Source: a virus
Length of the DNA stretch: 64,000 bases
IMG/VR virus record: IMGVR_UViG_3300017991_003989
Span: 1 to 64,000 of that record
Reading direction: 5' to 3' (one strand)
In this document: in pieces, positions 11,122-21,205 of the stretch
Position numbering within the stretch: the first letter of the stretch is position 1
Layout: each line of letters begins with the position of its first letter
The notes under the pieces: generated by a model
Told to the model about the DNA's origin: nothing
Databases searched by the model: none
Seen by the model: only the letters and a program-made list of their open reading frames with translations
Position numbers and translations under genes: made by a program

Positions 11122-11853
11122 ATGGCAATCACATACGGGCTTTTTGACCCTAAGCACTGCATAATTCGATACGTCGGAAAGACAATACGTTCTGACGAGA
11201 AGAGATTACAACTTCATGATTATGAGGCTTTTGGGGCAAAAAGAAGAAATTGGAATAGACCAGTCTGTCGTTGGATACGAAAACTGATGAGTGAAGGTCG
11301 TTATCCTGACATCATCGTCCTCGAAGAATGTGAGACTGAGCAAGAAGCACTTGATATGGAGATAGTGTGGATAGCACGTCTTAAAGAGGATGGAGCACGT
11401 CTTCTTAATGCAACAGAGGGAGGAGATGGGATATCTGGTTATCGACATGATGATAAAAGTAAGGATAAGATTGCTGAAGCATCTCGTAATCAAGTTTGGA
11501 CAGACGAGAGAAAAAAGAAGATAGGAGATGCAATACGTGGTGATAACCATTATTTGAGAAAAAACCCTGAACTTCATCCCTTCTTGGGTAAGACACATTC
11601 TCCTGAAGCACGTCGTAAGATAGGTGAAGCGGGAAAAGGTCGTCCTGGACCAAGGAAAGGCGTAGAAGTATCGCAAGAAACTCGTCGTAGAATGAGTGAA
11701 AGTGCAAAGAAACGAAAAAGAAAACCGCGAACAGAAGAAACGAAAAGAAAAATATCAGAAGCACTTAAAGGAAGAGGTCATCCACAAACTGAAGAGACAC
11801 GTAGGAAAATTTCTTTAGCTTTTAAGAAGAAAAGAGAGAAAAAAAATAATTGA
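11122..11853 (+). CDS. GIY-YIG homing endonuclease with NUMOD3 repeats
   Basis: The N-terminus has the GIY-YIG fold: ITYGLFDP then IRYVGKT, an Arg-rich helix RPVCRWIRKLMSEG, and the catalytic-type Glu in EALDMEIVWIARLK, ending with NATEGGDGISGY. Residues about 115-240 are a run of NUMOD3-like helices (DKSKDKIAEASRNQVW, SPEARRKIGEAGKG, SQETRRRMSESAKK, TEETKRKISEALKG, TEETRRKISLAFKK). Each binds DNA in the phosphate-backbone style of this group. The very basic, A-rich C-terminus is typical. It is free-standing, between a structural gene and the resolvase gene, and I see no intron boundaries. Confidence 0.88.
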   Translation: MAITYGLFDPKHCIIRYVGKTIRSDEKRLQLHDYEAFGAKRRNWNRPVCRWIRKLMSEGRYPDIIVLEECETEQEALDMEIVWIARLKEDGARLLNATEGGDGISGYRHDDKSKDKIAEASRNQVWTDERKKKIGDAIRGDNHYLRKNPELHPFLGKTHSPEARRKIGEAGKGRPGPRKGVEVSQETRRRMSESAKKRKRKPRTEETKRKISEALKGRGHPQTEETRRKISLAFKKKREKKNN

Positions 11854-11867
11854 CATAAAATAATTTC

Positions 11868-12428
11868 ATGCCGATATCATATTACATGTATATCGGCCTC
11901 GACGTATCGACTGCGATAATAGGTTTCTGTCGTCTGAATGATGACGGAGGGCCGATGGAGTTCGATTATCTGGACCTTAGAAAAGCAGATAAGAGCCTCT
12001 TTAAGAAGTCTGAGATGTTCGATGAGTGGGTAGAGAGAAAATGTTTGGTCTCCAAGGAAGATGTGGTCTTCATCGAAGACAAGCTTTCTGGTTTCTCCGG
12101 CGGAAAGTCGATGCAACGGACAATCATAACGTTGGCCACATTCAACGCGATGGTCTCACTTAAGGTTTATCAACAGATAGGAAAAGAGCCTCTTTACATT
12201 CACCCATCCACCGCCAAGGCTCTAATGAAGAGTGATGGCCTAATTATACCAAAGGGTTCTGACAAGAAACGTGTGACGGTCGATTTTGTCAAGAATTCAC
12301 TCAACAATTTTCCCTACGTTGAGACGAGAAATGGCAATCCGCAAGCATATTGTTATGACATGGCCGACGCCTACATCACGGCGCGAGCTGGATACCTGAA
12401 ATACGCATGCGGAGAGAACAAAAGCTAG
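11868..12428 (+). CDS. RuvC-like Holliday junction resolvase
   Basis: An RNase H-fold nuclease of the RuvC type. YIGLDVSTAIIGF supplies the first catalytic Asp (D12), VVFIEDKLSG the Glu (E70), and CYDMADAYITAR the C-terminal acidic pair (D164, D167). At 186 residues it has the size of bacterial RuvC and phage resolvases. It would cut branched DNA during recombination-dependent replication and before packaging, taking the role of T4 gp49. ATG 11868 and ATG 11886 (MYIGLDV) are both possible starts, and neither has a clear ribosome site. The 3' end overlaps the primase gene by 22 bases. Confidence 0.82.
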   Translation: MPISYYMYIGLDVSTAIIGFCRLNDDGGPMEFDYLDLRKADKSLFKKSEMFDEWVERKCLVSKEDVVFIEDKLSGFSGGKSMQRTIITLATFNAMVSLKVYQQIGKEPLYIHPSTAKALMKSDGLIIPKGSDKKRVTVDFVKNSLNNFPYVETRNGNPQAYCYDMADAYITARAGYLKYACGENKS

Positions 12429-13324
12429 CGTCGATACGTCGTGTTTTAAACATCGAGAGCTTCAAGAAGGGTGATGAATACATCTTTTTTTGTCCTCGAC
12501 ACCAGCATCACAAAGCGAAGCTGAGCGTCAATCTGAAGACGGACAACTTTCACTGCTGGATTTGCGGGTGGAAGGGAAAGACGCTTCTTCCAATCTTCAG
12601 GATGGTCGGAGGCGAGGAGCTTCAGCTCTATCTTGAGAGCATTGGTAGGAAAAGAGATGTTGAAGATGAGGAAAGAAGATACGATAACCCTGTGCTTCCT
12701 GACACCTTCAGGACACTTTCGTCGAGTATCATTTCGCCATACGCGAGAGCGGCGTTTATGTATTGTAAAGGACGAGGTCTATCTGAAGAGGACATTCTCA
12801 GGTTCAAGCTCGGATATTGTGAAGACGGAGAATACAGATACAGGGTCATCGTCCCATCTTTCGATGCGAACGGTGAGCTCAATTTCTTCGTAGGACGAAA
12901 GTTTTACGATCACATCGGACTTTCCTACAAACATGGAAACTTTGACAAAGACATCATCTTCAATGAGTATCTGATCGATTGGGATGAGCCGATAATACTG
13001 ACAGAGGGACCATTTGACGCTATGAAAGCGGGAACGAATGCGATACCGTTACAGGGAACGATACTGAGGGAAGAAATGAAGTTATTTCAGAAGATAGTCT
13101 CCTCTGGAACTAAGATATACGTCGCTTTAGATGCTGACGCGAGGAAAAAGCAAATGAAGCTTGTGAAGATGCTGATGGAGTATGACGTGAATGTGTTCAG
13201 TGTCTCTCTGAATGATGCAGAAGACCTGGGAGACATGAAGAAGGAGGACATTTCCTCCGCTTTGGAGTGTGCAAGACCGGTGAGGTCAGAAATTGACATG
13301 CTTAGACTGAGAGTATCTGCGTGA
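12407..13324 (+). CDS. DnaG-type DNA primase (zinc finger + Toprim)
   Basis: A 305-residue primase. A CHC2-type zinc-binding site is formed by C29, H32, C50 and C53 (FFCPRHQ ... FHCWICGWKG). A Toprim catalytic domain follows: ILTEGPFDAMKAG gives the metal-binding Glu (about 200) and IYVALDADARKK the DxD (about 242-244). No helicase domain is fused, so it resembles T4 gp61 in role and would make RNA primers for the lagging strand. It overlaps the resolvase by 22 bases and its TGA is shared with the ATG of the next small gene (TGATG), so the set is probably co-translated. Confidence 0.88.
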   Translation: MRREQKLASIRRVLNIESFKKGDEYIFFCPRHQHHKAKLSVNLKTDNFHCWICGWKGKTLLPIFRMVGGEELQLYLESIGRKRDVEDEERRYDNPVLPDTFRTLSSSIISPYARAAFMYCKGRGLSEEDILRFKLGYCEDGEYRYRVIVPSFDANGELNFFVGRKFYDHIGLSYKHGNFDKDIIFNEYLIDWDEPIILTEGPFDAMKAGTNAIPLQGTILREEMKLFQKIVSSGTKIYVALDADARKKQMKLVKMLMEYDVNVFSVSLNDAEDLGDMKKEDISSALECARPVRSEIDMLRLRVSA

Positions 13325-13533
13325 TGAACGAACGAGATTTAACGAGGTTGAATTACTTGTTGGATGCGCTTACTGCAAATCCTTTGAAGTTTCGTAAGTT
13401 CCTTGATATTCTTCGTGCACGAGAAGTTTCTCAAGAACTAGAAGAAGTCCTATGTTTTATCCATGACGAGATTGAGAGAGACGTCAATGTGAATATTCGT
13501 AGTGTTGTTCTTTCATATTTGGTGCTTGCATGA
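13324..13533 (+). CDS. Small conserved-position protein, unknown
   Basis: A 69-residue, mostly helical protein (NERDLTRLNYLLDALTANPL ... ELEEVLCFIHDEIERDV). ATG 13324 overlaps the primase stop (TGATG) and its own TGA overlaps the ATG of the SbcD-SbcC gene (ATGA), so it is stitched between two replication genes. No family recognised. It may be an accessory of either partner, which is inference from coupling only. Confidence 0.55.
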   Translation: MNERDLTRLNYLLDALTANPLKFRKFLDILRAREVSQELEEVLCFIHDEIERDVNVNIRSVVLSYLVLA

Positions 13534-16500
13534 AGATAGCACACGTTAGCGATATCCACCTGCGTAATCTCAAATACCACAGTGAATATCACAAGGTATT
13601 CGAGAATTTCTATGGCCTCCTGAGAGAGATACAACCGGACATCGTTGTAAATACGGGTGATACGGCGCACGCGAAGGTGCAGATATCACCAGAGTTCGTT
13701 CAGATGTGCTCGGATCACATTAAGGCCGTATCGGAGATTGCCCCCTACCATATACTTCTCGGCAATCATGACCTCAATTTGGCGAACCTCAATAGGAGAG
13801 ACGCCATTTCACCAATCGTTGAGAGCATCAATAGCGACAGGGTGGTGCTTCATAAGAGATGTGGTTCGTGGGGGGAACTATGGGGCGAAGAAGATGGATA
13901 CGAATTTTACATCTTTTCATGCGCTGATAAGAAGAACTATCCAACACGATTTAATCTTGATCCAGGCAAGAATGTACTTCGTATTGGCTTGTTCCACGGG
14001 ACCGTCCGTGGCTGCGAGACCGACACTGAATGGATGATGCGAGACGCCGAGCTCGACATCTCTCGTTTTGAGGGTCTCGATTTCGTGATGATGGGAGACA
14101 TCCACAAGCATCAGTTCATGGATGTAGAAAAGAGGATTGCTTACGCTGGCTCTCTCATCCAACAGAACTACGGTGAGAGCATCGAGAAGGGCTTCCTTCT
14201 CTGGGACATAAGAAGCAAGGACGATTTTGACGTGGAGCTAATTCCCGTAGAGGGAAGCAGGAAGTTCTACACGGTCGAGCTAAACGACGATCTCAGCATA
14301 CCTGATGTCGAGCTGGATGAGGGTTCTAGGGTTAGATTAGTCTCTCCGAGAAAACATACTCTTAGCGAGCAGCACATATTCGAACGTGAAGCGAAGAAAC
14401 GTTTCAAGCCATACGACTTAGCAGTAGCACTGTCTTCGAACATCGGCATGCAAGCTACGAATATTGCTGCGAAGACGATAAAGATGGAGAGACTGAGAGA
14501 TATCGATGTTCAGGAGAAATTGATAAGAAAGTTTCTTGAGGGAAGAACGATATCTGATGAGGTTATGTCACAGATACTTGAGCTCAACAAGCGTTATCAA
14601 CTTACCATTGAGAAGGAGGAAGAGGTCATTCGTGATATCTCATGGAAGGTGGATAGCATTGCGTGGAACGGAATGTTCAATTATGGTGATGGAAATGTAA
14701 TCGACTTTTCGAAGATGAAGGGCATCATCGGCATGTTCGCGCCGAACGGTTCAGGAAAATCGGCGCTTATCGACGTGATAACGACGACGCTCTTCAATAA
14801 GACGACGAAGGGCGTTAATAAGAACATTGAGCTCATTAACGATAGGAAACAGACCGCAGAAATGGTGGCTTACATTTCGACGAGCGATGAACAATATGTA
14901 GTTGAGAGGGGAATTGAGAGGGTCAGATACGGCAAGAAGAAATTTGAAGTAGAAAAAGAATGGGGAAAGACATCTCTTGACTTCACTGTGAGAAATGAGC
15001 TAGGCGAAGAGAAGGTGAGCGGAACTCAGAGGACAGAGACTGAGAAGCTCGTGAGGAAGCGAATAGGAACTTACGATGACTTCGTGCTGACAACGCTCCT
15101 TACACAGGGACGTGAGAGCGACCTCATCAAATGTAAGGAGACTGAGCGCAGGAAGATACTCTCTAAGTTCATGGATCTTGACATTTTTGAGCAGAAAGCG
15201 AAGATGGCCAAAGAAGAAAGCAAGACGTTCGTAAAGAAGCTCAAAGAGATCGAGGGAGAGGACTTAGAGGAGTTAAAGAAGAGCTCGGAACTTGAGCTAA
15301 ATGCAACGAAACACGAAGTGACGTCCGAGGAGACGAAAAGAAAATCGATAGTGAAGAGCCTAGAGACGCTCAGAGATATGATTTCTAACCTGAAAGCATC
15401 AAGAAAAGATGCAATACAGAGTTTCGATATAAAGAAGATTGAGAGGATGAGAAACGATGTATTCACGAAATGGAGCGAGTGGAAGACAATATTAGATGAT
15501 CAAAGATGCTCACTCAGAAGCACCAAAGAGACCCTCAGAGACCTCGAACAGGAGAGGGCTGTGTTCCCCATCGAGGACTATATGAGGGGACAGAAGGAGC
15601 TTGAGGGCTACGAGAGAAGCATCCATGCCGCCGATGCGGACCTCGAGAACCAGTCGAGAATTCTCGGGGAATATATGAAGAACGCGAAGTTCCTCGCGAG
15701 CGTTCCATGCGGCGACAAGTATCCAAAATGCAAGTTTCTAATCGAGGCGTTTGAGAAGAAGGGCGATATAGAAGAGCAGAGAGAGAAAGTTCTGCGATGT
15801 CAAAAGACAGTTCGTGAGTTTGAAGATGAGATAAACAGCTTGAAGTCTGAAAAGTATGAAGAGAAGATAGCCAGATACGAACAGATGACGAGGAAAATAG
15901 CTCAGATGTCATCTGATGTTGTAAGCTTAGCTGTGGGGATTGAAAATACAGAGCTGAAGATGATGTCAGAGTGGAAGGATGCGCTTAGGTTAGACGCCGA
16001 TGAGCTCAGTTATCTTAAGACTAGGGACGATATTGAGAAAAATAAAGATATCGACGTTGACATCGAGCGGACAGAGAAGATGATTTCCGTTCAGCAGGAG
16101 CAGATTGAGTTCATTAATAAAAAGATAATAGAACTTACCAAGAAGCAGGGTGCCACGGAGATAATCGTTGAGCAGGTCAATAAGCAGATGAAAGAGCTCA
16201 AGAAAATGCGCACGCTCTGCGATGCTTATGAGCATTATTGTGATGCGATGGGCAAGCACGGCATCTCGTATCAAATTTTGGTAGAAAAGCTTCCGCTGTT
16301 GAACGAGGAGATAAACAAGATACTTTCCACAATCGTAAAATTCAATGTCATCCTCGACCACAATGAAGATGATCAGACAATTAGCATGTTTCTTCAGTAT
16401 GGAGATCATAGTAATAGAAATTTGAAGCTGGCAGGTGGAGCGGAGAAGCTAATAGCGTCAATCGCAATCCGCGTAGCACTGTTAAGCATAACCAATCTAC

Positions 16501-16709
16501 CGAAGAACAACATGTTCATTATCGATGAGGGTTTTGGCAGCCTCGACGCGAAAAATCTTGATAACATCAACAGGATGTTTAACTATTTACGTATGATGTT
16601 TGACCATGTCCTAATCATTAGTCATATTGATTTGATGAAAGATATGGTCGACCATAGCGTAACAATACTGACAGACGACAAACAATTTAGCAAGGTAGAA
16701 GTGATATGA
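13530..16709 (+). CDS. Fused SbcD-SbcC (Mre11-Rad50, T4 gp47-gp46) nuclease-ATPase
   Basis: One 1059-residue chain carries both halves of the Mre11-Rad50 complex. Residues 1 to about 300 are the SbcD/Mre11 phosphoesterase: D8 and H10 in VSDIH, NTGD (about 39-42), GNHD (about 78-81) and GDIHKH (about 188-193). From about 370 on it is SbcC/Rad50: Walker A FAPNGSGKSA (about 402-411), Q-loop region LLTQGRESD, long coiled coils either side of a zinc-hook-like CGDKYPKC (about 726-733), signature LAGGAEK (about 966), Walker B MFIIDEGFGSLD (about 993) and the H-loop IISHID. In T4 and most bacteria these are two genes. The complex resects DNA ends for recombination-dependent replication. I find no stop or shift at the junction. 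It is coupled by ATGA overlaps on both sides. Confidence 0.93.
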   Translation: MKIAHVSDIHLRNLKYHSEYHKVFENFYGLLREIQPDIVVNTGDTAHAKVQISPEFVQMCSDHIKAVSEIAPYHILLGNHDLNLANLNRRDAISPIVESINSDRVVLHKRCGSWGELWGEEDGYEFYIFSCADKKNYPTRFNLDPGKNVLRIGLFHGTVRGCETDTEWMMRDAELDISRFEGLDFVMMGDIHKHQFMDVEKRIAYAGSLIQQNYGESIEKGFLLWDIRSKDDFDVELIPVEGSRKFYTVELNDDLSIPDVELDEGSRVRLVSPRKHTLSEQHIFEREAKKRFKPYDLAVALSSNIGMQATNIAAKTIKMERLRDIDVQEKLIRKFLEGRTISDEVMSQILELNKRYQLTIEKEEEVIRDISWKVDSIAWNGMFNYGDGNVIDFSKMKGIIGMFAPNGSGKSALIDVITTTLFNKTTKGVNKNIELINDRKQTAEMVAYISTSDEQYVVERGIERVRYGKKKFEVEKEWGKTSLDFTVRNELGEEKVSGTQRTETEKLVRKRIGTYDDFVLTTLLTQGRESDLIKCKETERRKILSKFMDLDIFEQKAKMAKEESKTFVKKLKEIEGEDLEELKKSSELELNATKHEVTSEETKRKSIVKSLETLRDMISNLKASRKDAIQSFDIKKIERMRNDVFTKWSEWKTILDDQRCSLRSTKETLRDLEQERAVFPIEDYMRGQKELEGYERSIHAADADLENQSRILGEYMKNAKFLASVPCGDKYPKCKFLIEAFEKKGDIEEQREKVLRCQKTVREFEDEINSLKSEKYEEKIARYEQMTRKIAQMSSDVVSLAVGIENTELKMMSEWKDALRLDADELSYLKTRDDIEKNKDIDVDIERTEKMISVQQEQIEFINKKIIELTKKQGATEIIVEQVNKQMKELKKMRTLCDAYEHYCDAMGKHGISYQILVEKLPLLNEEINKILSTIVKFNVILDHNEDDQTISMFLQYGDHSNRNLKLAGGAEKLIASIAIRVALLSITNLPKNNMFIIDEGFGSLDAKNLDNINRMFNYLRMMFDHVLIISHIDLMKDMVDHSVTILTDDKQFSKVEVI

Positions 16710-19522: not shown

Positions 19523-21205
19523 ATGAACAAGAAGACAGTAAAAGCAGAAATAATCAGGTGCGGGCAAGACCCTGTCTATTTCATCCGTAATTACGTCAAA
19601 ATTCAGCATCCCAAGCGCGGTTTGATACCTTTTGACCTCTATCCTTATCAAGAAGAGCTCATTAGGGCCTACCAAAAGAACCGTTTCAACGTAATTCTGA
19701 AGGCTCGTCAGCTCGGTATTTCCGAGGTGACCGCAGCTTATGCCACGTGGATGATACTCTTCCGTCGTGATAAGAACATCCTTGTCATGGCGACGAAGAA
19801 GGACACATCCAAGAACATCATTCGCAAAGTCGATACGGCCATCAAGAACCTCCCAAGTTGGCTCATGCTGGCGAAGGTCAAGAGGAACAACGTTTTCGAT
19901 ATCGAACTAACGACTGGTTCACGCATAAAGGCGATTTCGACGACGAGGGAAGCTGGGCGCTCGGAAGCGGTCTCATTTCTCATAATTGATGAGGCTGCTC
20001 ACATTGACAATATGGAGGAAATCTGGACAGGCATCTTGCCGACGGTTCAGGCGGGCGGCTCCGTCTCCATGTTATCCACCCCGAAGGGCGTGGGAAATAC
20101 GTTCCACAAGGTGTATGTCCAGGCAGAACAGGGAGAGAATGATTTCTTCTTGACGAAGCTCATGTGGTGGCTGCATCCCGAACGCGTCCTAAATGAGGAG
20201 GGATTGCCAGACCTCGAGGATGATCCGCTTAGGCCCGGTTTCAAGACTAGCTCATGGTTCCGCAAGGAGACGATGGGAATGGGCCCGAGAGATGTCGCTC
20301 AGGAACTTGAATGCAACTTCAATGCCTCGGGAGACAACTTCATTTCGGCAGATTACATGGAGTGGATTGAGAAGAATACGATGTTCGACCCGGAGAGCTA
20401 TGAGAATTGGGACAGGGCTCTTCATGTGTGGAAGAAACCGGAAGCGGGAAGACAGTATTTCATATCTGCAGATGTAGCGAGGGGTGACGGAAAGGATAAC
20501 TCTGCAGCACACGTGTGGGATATAAGCACGATGGAGCAAGTCGCGGAGTATTATGGCAAGGTTCCTCCCGATGATTTTGCTAATTTGGTGTGTCGGATGG
20601 GGAGAGAGTATAACGGAGCTCTGCTTGTAGTGGAGAACAACTCCATCGGTCTGGCATGCCTGGAGCATGTGAAGCTAGCAGAATATGAGAACGTGTATTA
20701 CTCTAGCAAGGGGAATTTTAGCCCAGGAAAGTCCGTGAACACAGCATTTCAGATGCCGAGCATGAATGAGCTGGTTCCAGGCTTTACGACATCTCCAAGA
20801 ACCAGACCGCTGATGCTGGCGAAGCTTGAGGAGTATGTTAGGACGAGAATGATAATCATCAGGTCTCCTAGGCTTATGGGAGAGCTGAGGAAGTTCGTCT
20901 GGCACAACGGCAAGGCCGAGGCGATGAAGGGTTATAACGATGACCTCGTCATGGCTGCAGCCATAGGATGCTGGATTAGAGACACATTCTTGGGTTCTTC
21001 GATATTGAACGAGGAGCTCAGCAAGAAGATGCTGGACTGTACGTCATACAATAGGACGGAGAATGTGGATATTCCGGGAGCGACGAAGAACCCTGAATTT
21101 ATCAAGAAGAACGAGCGCATCTCTCTGATGAAGAGAAATCCATATACAATGACGATGCCGAACGGTCAATTAATAGACATCGGATGGCTAATCAGCACAA
21201 AATGA
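19523..21205 (+). CDS. terL: Terminase large subunit (gp17-like)
   Basis: The packaging motor ATPase-nuclease, 560 residues. The ATPase half has a Walker A-type loop ARQLGISE (about 61-68), which lacks the usual Lys-Ser/Thr, and Walker B FLIIDEAAH (about 152-160) followed by a coupling motif MLSTPKG. The RNase H-fold nuclease half has ISADVARGDG (first Asp about 317), VVENNSIG (Glu about 371) and NDDLVMAA (Asp pair about 473-474). T4 gp17 is 610 residues. The gene precedes the portal gene by 57 bases, the T4-like order. It translocates DNA through the portal and cuts concatemers at headful. The altered Walker A deserves note but the rest of the fold is intact. Confidence 0.95.
   Translation: MNKKTVKAEIIRCGQDPVYFIRNYVKIQHPKRGLIPFDLYPYQEELIRAYQKNRFNVILKARQLGISEVTAAYATWMILFRRDKNILVMATKKDTSKNIIRKVDTAIKNLPSWLMLAKVKRNNVFDIELTTGSRIKAISTTREAGRSEAVSFLIIDEAAHIDNMEEIWTGILPTVQAGGSVSMLSTPKGVGNTFHKVYVQAEQGENDFFLTKLMWWLHPERVLNEEGLPDLEDDPLRPGFKTSSWFRKETMGMGPRDVAQELECNFNASGDNFISADYMEWIEKNTMFDPESYENWDRALHVWKKPEAGRQYFISADVARGDGKDNSAAHVWDISTMEQVAEYYGKVPPDDFANLVCRMGREYNGALLVVENNSIGLACLEHVKLAEYENVYYSSKGNFSPGKSVNTAFQMPSMNELVPGFTTSPRTRPLMLAKLEEYVRTRMIIIRSPRLMGELRKFVWHNGKAEAMKGYNDDLVMAAAIGCWIRDTFLGSSILNEELSKKMLDCTSYNRTENVDIPGATKNPEFIKKNERISLMKRNPYTMTMPNGQLIDIGWLISTK

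Follow-up and report, generated by a model that had tools for sequence, protein, structure and literature searches.

A single-chain Mre11-Rad50 (SbcD-SbcC) fusion gene with a CX6C cysteine hook in an uncultured tailed phage

The Mre11-like nuclease and the Rad50-like ATPase of phages T4 (gp47/gp46) and T5 and of Listeria phage A511 (SbcD/SbcC) are encoded by two genes. In the stretch of viral DNA analysed here (the window, 64,000 nucleotides from IMG/VR record IMGVR_UViG_3300017991_003989) the same two enzymes, with the same presumed role, appear in one gene, which raises the question of whether they truly form one protein and what such a protein would do. Positions 13530..16709 (+) hold a single ATG-started ORF of 1059 codons plus stop, without an internal stop. 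Within it, Pfam Metallophos (PF00149) covers residues 1-193 (E 1e-10) and AAA_23 covers residues 381-598, both above the curated cut-off, and a match to PHROG 77 (SbcC-like) spans residues 328-1057. The phosphoesterase motifs SDIH, GDxxH, GNHD, H156, and GDIHKHQ can be read directly in the first half, and the ATPase motifs Walker A (GMFAPNGSGKS), Q-loop (Q526), signature (LAGGAEK), Walker B (FIIDE), D-loop (SLD), and H-loop (H1032) in the second. The preliminary description of one in-frame SbcD-SbcC fusion carrying the motifs and domains of both enzymes is thus borne out.

The features by which such fusions have been recognized (PMC3175470) are present. The phosphoesterase and Rad50 ATPase domains share one frame, with Mre11 first, and DxH, GDxxH/D, GNHD/E, H, and (H/D)xH are all found. 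A cap, a helix-loop-helix, and a linker lie between the halves (model residues 246-363), and Walker A, Q-loop, signature, Walker B, and H-loop flank a coiled coil, as in Rad50/SbcC. The protein is confirmed as a natural single-chain SbcD-SbcC fusion, an Mre11 half followed by a Rad50 half, both complete.

Searching IMG/VR with an alignment of three sequences gives at least 580 encoded relatives, and the 80 with the best scores were taken for comparison; with an alignment of two sequences, whose peptide patterns are too specific, the search returns two loci only. In an alignment of 66 fusion proteins, made up of fusions from the best-80 set and the window protein, the key residues of the motifs are invariant or nearly so. 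D8, H10, D44, H47, N79, H80, H156, D190, and H192 of the phosphoesterase are the same in all 66, as are N406, G409, K410, S411, Q526, G970, K973, D999, E1000, D1006, and H1032 of the ATPase.

An AlphaFold2 model built on the 66 sequences (mean pLDDT 85.6) has the domains in canonical order, all on the plus strand. The phosphoesterase domain (residues 1-245, 13530..14264; pLDDT mostly 85-97) is followed by the Mre11 capping region (residues 246-301, 14265..14432), assigned from secondary structure in the model and from Foldseek alignments to Mre11/SbcD chains. The flexible linker (residues 302-324, 14433..14501) has pLDDT below 50 at residues 302-316, a disordered stretch. Two helices (residues 325-336 and 343-363, 14502..14618) probably form the helix-loop-helix with which the Mre11 half binds Rad50, given their position between cap and ATPase as in PMC3175470. 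The ATPase N-lobe (residues 371-550, 14640..15179), with Walker A and Q-loop, and the C-lobe (residues 912-1059, 16263..16706), with signature, Walker B, D-loop, and H-loop, enclose a coiled coil of long helices. Its ascending arm (residues 551-724, 15180..15701) and descending arm (residues 738-907, 15741..16250) are each about 170 residues, joined by a tip loop of 13 residues. With a pTM of 0.50, the model does not settle how the nuclease and ATPase halves are placed with respect to each other.

Foldseek matches in the PDB include Mre11-Rad50-Nbs1 7zr1 (E 1.7e-21), Mre11 chains 3tho_B and 6s6v_A, and Rad50 3av0_B, with alignments to Mre11/SbcD chains such as 3tho_B and 6s6v_A of 401-414 columns. 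Sequence profiles match E. coli SbcC 6s6v_C (6.7e-29) and Mre11 3qg5_C (3.5e-18). In BFVD the highest-ranking matches are long giant-virus proteins made as one chain (Tupanvirus, E 4.5e-65; Harvfovirus, Yasminevirus, Catovirus), followed closely by those of Tenacibaculum phages pT24 and PTm1.

The fused arrangement itself, implied to be new when the locus was first described, is clearly of a kind already known. In 2011 Yoshida, Claverie, and Ogata described Mimivirus R555 and twelve other proteins as Mre11/Rad50 fusions with this order of the halves, their sources being Mimivirus, Bacillus phage 0305phi8-36, plasmids, bacteria, and eukaryotes (PMC3175470). The authors pointed out that a short linker is enough to join the two, the C-terminus of Mre11 being near the N-terminus of Rad50 (PMC3175470). 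The window protein shares with R555-type fusions the order, the linker idea, the GDxxH motif, and the Asp that Mimivirus R555 has where P. furiosus Mre11 has His206 (PMC3175470), although R555 is longer (1351 aa, against 1059 aa here) and the window gene belongs to a phage whose head protein is of T4 type. The abundant marine (GOS) homologues of R555 were argued to be largely from phages, phage primase genes being present on the same scaffolds (PMC3175470); the window gene too has a primase beside it, and in this also fits the published description.

Fused proteins with Metallophos and AAA domains are likewise present in Microcystis phage Mel-JY01 (WWT39521.1, 1066 aa), where a primase and a small ORF lie directly upstream, and in the LR756501 megaphage (1202 aa). 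In the public records of these cultured phages the proteins are named after one half: WWT39521.1 is an "AAA domain containing protein", and YP_009876626.1 of pT24 is a "metallo-phosphoesterase", in which Pfam detects the Metallophos half only and the fusion rests on length and the BFVD structural match. E. coli SbcCD and archaeal Mre11-Rad50 have the same domain folds and motifs as the window protein but in two chains; E. coli SbcC alone is 1048 aa, with a longer coiled coil, and archaeal Mre11 has GHxH in place of the GDIH of the window family. Split Mre11-Rad50 complexes are 2:2, and the covalent 1:1 joining that had been put forward as useful therefore brings no new stoichiometry. Within a large group of uncultured phages that have T4-type head proteins the single-chain form is common, a finding that broadens the known range of such fusions more than it surprises, and its spread among uncultured marine phages agrees with the 2011 inference about the marine R555-like sequences. 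At about 1050 aa, and with arms of about 170 residues in the coiled coil, such small fused enzymes are attractive targets for structural studies of the complete complex.

The record from which the window comes is a virus record of 69,959 bases, possibly a fragment. It carries a terminase (PHROG 2), a portal (PHROG 213), and a major head protein (PHROG 138, also matched in 10 of 12 related contigs); by its terminase this is a tailed phage, and its head protein is of T4 type. Upstream of the fusion are a DNA primase with a CHC2 zinc finger (12407..13324, +; Pfam PF01807, PHROG 47) and a RuvC-like Holliday junction resolvase (11868..12428, +; PHROG 159, E 3e-5), and downstream is the terminase large subunit (19523..21205, +). 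Relatives repeatedly show this gene order, from RuvC-like through primase and fusion to terminase and portal: the primase is found in 73 of the 85 loci with enough upstream sequence, and RuvC-like and terminase matches in 66 each. No second phosphoesterase gene of the Mre11 type is present in the 69,959-base record or in 12 long related contigs. Indeed, the one Metallophos place and the one PHROG 77 place of the record are both inside the fused gene, and each of the 12 contigs has a single Metallophos place, which falls in an open frame 1043-1071 codons long.

Two smaller features lie nearby. An ORF of 70 aa (window 13321-13533), without a Pfam or PHROG match, spans the gap between the primase and fusion genes and overlaps both, at the same place as the small ORF of Mel-JY01. 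Between a tail lectin-like gene and the RuvC-like gene is a gene for a GIY-YIG homing endonuclease with three NUMOD3 motifs (window 11122-11853), which is probably a recent insertion, since it is matched in only two of the related loci compared.

The intact conserved residues, the single copy in the records examined, and the replication-recombination neighbourhood of primase and RuvC-like genes support the reading that the gene encodes a functional single-chain Mre11-Rad50 (SbcD-SbcC) DNA-end processor of the phage, to which we give a probability of roughly 0.85. By analogy with characterised members of the family, two chains would pair through their Mre11 domains, their ATPase lobes, and metal-bridged cysteine tips, giving a 2:2 set of domains in which ATP-driven opening and closing of the ATPase would gate the nuclease on DNA ends. 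Resection and tethering of ends, as in characterised Mre11-Rad50 complexes and T4 gp46/gp47, would then feed recombination, recombination-dependent replication, or repair of phage DNA, the role of gp46/gp47 being taken as the analogy (PMC3175470). Recombination-dependent replication is probably the main use. The fusion would most likely fix equal expression and local assembly of the two activities; no sign that it alters the chemistry was seen.

Roles apart from nuclease activity are possible for Mre11 proteins, and the metal ligand Asp190 of the GDIH motif differs from His206 of P. furiosus. The fused protein could accordingly be imagined as a nuclease-inactive protein that tethers DNA structurally or organises it in an SMC-like way, given this change of His to Asp at a metal ligand and the ability of Mre11 proteins to act independently of cleavage. 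This is unlikely, however, as Asp is a plausible metal ligand, and the remaining catalytic residues together with Asp190 are invariant in 66 divergent members, which argues for selection on the active site. A still less probable role is that of an ABC-ATPase-nuclease defence effector, acting between phages or against plasmids, rather than a replication or repair enzyme. The weak PADLOC matches that point to it (PbeC, 1.3e-5; mad8, 5.4e-5) are confined to the shared ATPase region, whereas the gene sits in a conserved block of replication and packaging genes and, being present once in each of the 12 long contigs, has the look of a core gene.

An error of assembly or sequencing that masks a stop and a start between two overlapping genes would be another explanation of the fusion, given that T4, T5, and many phages have the enzymes in two genes and that Listeria phage A511 has two separate CDSs. 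It is refuted, because both halves share one open frame in all of the best 80 of at least 580 IMG/VR relatives, with identities to the window protein of about 50% in the top segments and down to about 30%, the stretch at residues 300-324 is held at 18-27 residues in all 66 members, and records of cultured phages also carry the fused gene. The best 80 were picked by score, which is a bias toward fused genes, so that they show the fusion to be common, not universal; two of them (L007 and L013) end at contig edges. Neither of the grounds for doubt first raised against the fusion, a stop and start hidden between residues 300 and 380 or homologues that are all split, was found. There is no frame break in the best-80 relatives, and the search of related genomes found the fusion in these and in cultured phages. 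The part of the gene at issue, 14450-14700, encodes the linker, the pair of helices that precede the ATPase, and the first part of the ATPase.

The same fusion is borne by contigs of bacterial and archaeal MAGs (L088-L092), which are probably phage contigs binned with their hosts, since several have phage neighbours. In the WOR-3 "chromosome" CP070664.1 (L093, 4995-7052) a phage-type fusion gene enters a stretch of Ns with apparently cellular genes beyond, which suggests that phage sequence was wrongly joined to a MAG chromosome. In the 484-kb phage LR756508.1 (L004, 4944-9169) the fused gene is interrupted just after GDIHKRQ by an ORF of 305 aa with paired zinc-finger-like cysteines, after which fusion homology picks up again at about 6584. 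The ORF looks like a homing endonuclease; a group I intron was considered here, but Rfam shows no known intron in this sequence, and the insertion is described as an ORF only.

Split relatives were also seen. In one (L002, 4983-9309) a primase of the same kind is followed by SbcD, an AAA ATPase gene, and SbcC, in that order, and the sequence of another (L003, 4944-6153) stops before any SbcC. The idea that these arose from a fusion broken within its Mre11 half, so that the cap stayed with SbcC, was rejected, the N-terminus of the L002 SbcC matching the cap profile with a probability of 0.2%. In Listeria phage LMTA-57 (NC_047871.1, 59545-62457) a single gene annotated as "recombination exonuclease" (1009 aa in BFVD) takes the place of the two CDSs of A511, and is either a recent fusion or a sequencing artefact.

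With the fusion known, the only fresh detail of the window protein is its cysteine hook. The CXXC of the Rad50/SbcC zinc hook is replaced by CX6C, CGDKYPKC (residues 727-734, 15708..15731, +), with C727 and C734 both in the tip loop of the model and kept in at least 90% of the 66 fusions. The spacing of six residues noted at the outset therefore stands, but it is not peculiar to this protein, being part of a conserved family motif, (V/I)PCG-D-x-F-P-x-C-K-F-(I/L), at the coiled-coil tip of most members. Close relatives swap this cassette for CX7C, CXXC, or no paired cysteines. Among 93 ATPase sequences, which include near-copies and split controls, 67 have CX6C, 11 CX7C (counting L039, CGDSYLTSC, assigned by eye), 11 CXXC, and 4 neither. 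Mel-JY01 (CKHC) and LR756501 (CVTC) have CXXC, unlike the window protein. Because hook spacing varies within the family, CXXC is not a strict criterion for the fused proteins, and assignment as Rad50-like rests on the other features.

On a tree of 79 ATPase sequences, made by a quick method with long branches and the hook columns kept in, 11 changes of hook type are needed, the CXXC label requiring at least 5; these counts are off by one, L039 having been entered as CX6C. In the close pairs L017/L023 and L048/L043, which have different hooks, the ATPase lobes are 79-92% identical and the coil around the tip 7-33%, whereas pairs with the same hook (L041/L043, L015/L016) have 36-79% identity in that coil. 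Replacement of the whole tip between relatives would be a reasonable reading of the few pairs compared. It may be, although we hold this tentatively and at a little under even odds, that the family cassette, with six or sometimes seven residues between the cysteines, is a second kind of hook that joins two chains by a metal with a geometry unlike that of CXXC, and that phages exchange the whole tip with the CXXC cassette HEYDPxCxxCxxNxFVKxA. If so, the CX6C and CXXC cassettes would be interchangeable dimerisation modules; the variants form a natural series for what a Rad50 hook must do. No description of a CX6C Rad50 hook was found in a literature search with subscription papers mostly outside its reach, which is weak evidence of novelty. 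The split phage proteins of A511, SBSphiJ7, and L002 have CXXC, as do all five plasmid SbcC-like proteins examined, and a split Moorella phage protein has CX7C (VPCNDKLKPSC).
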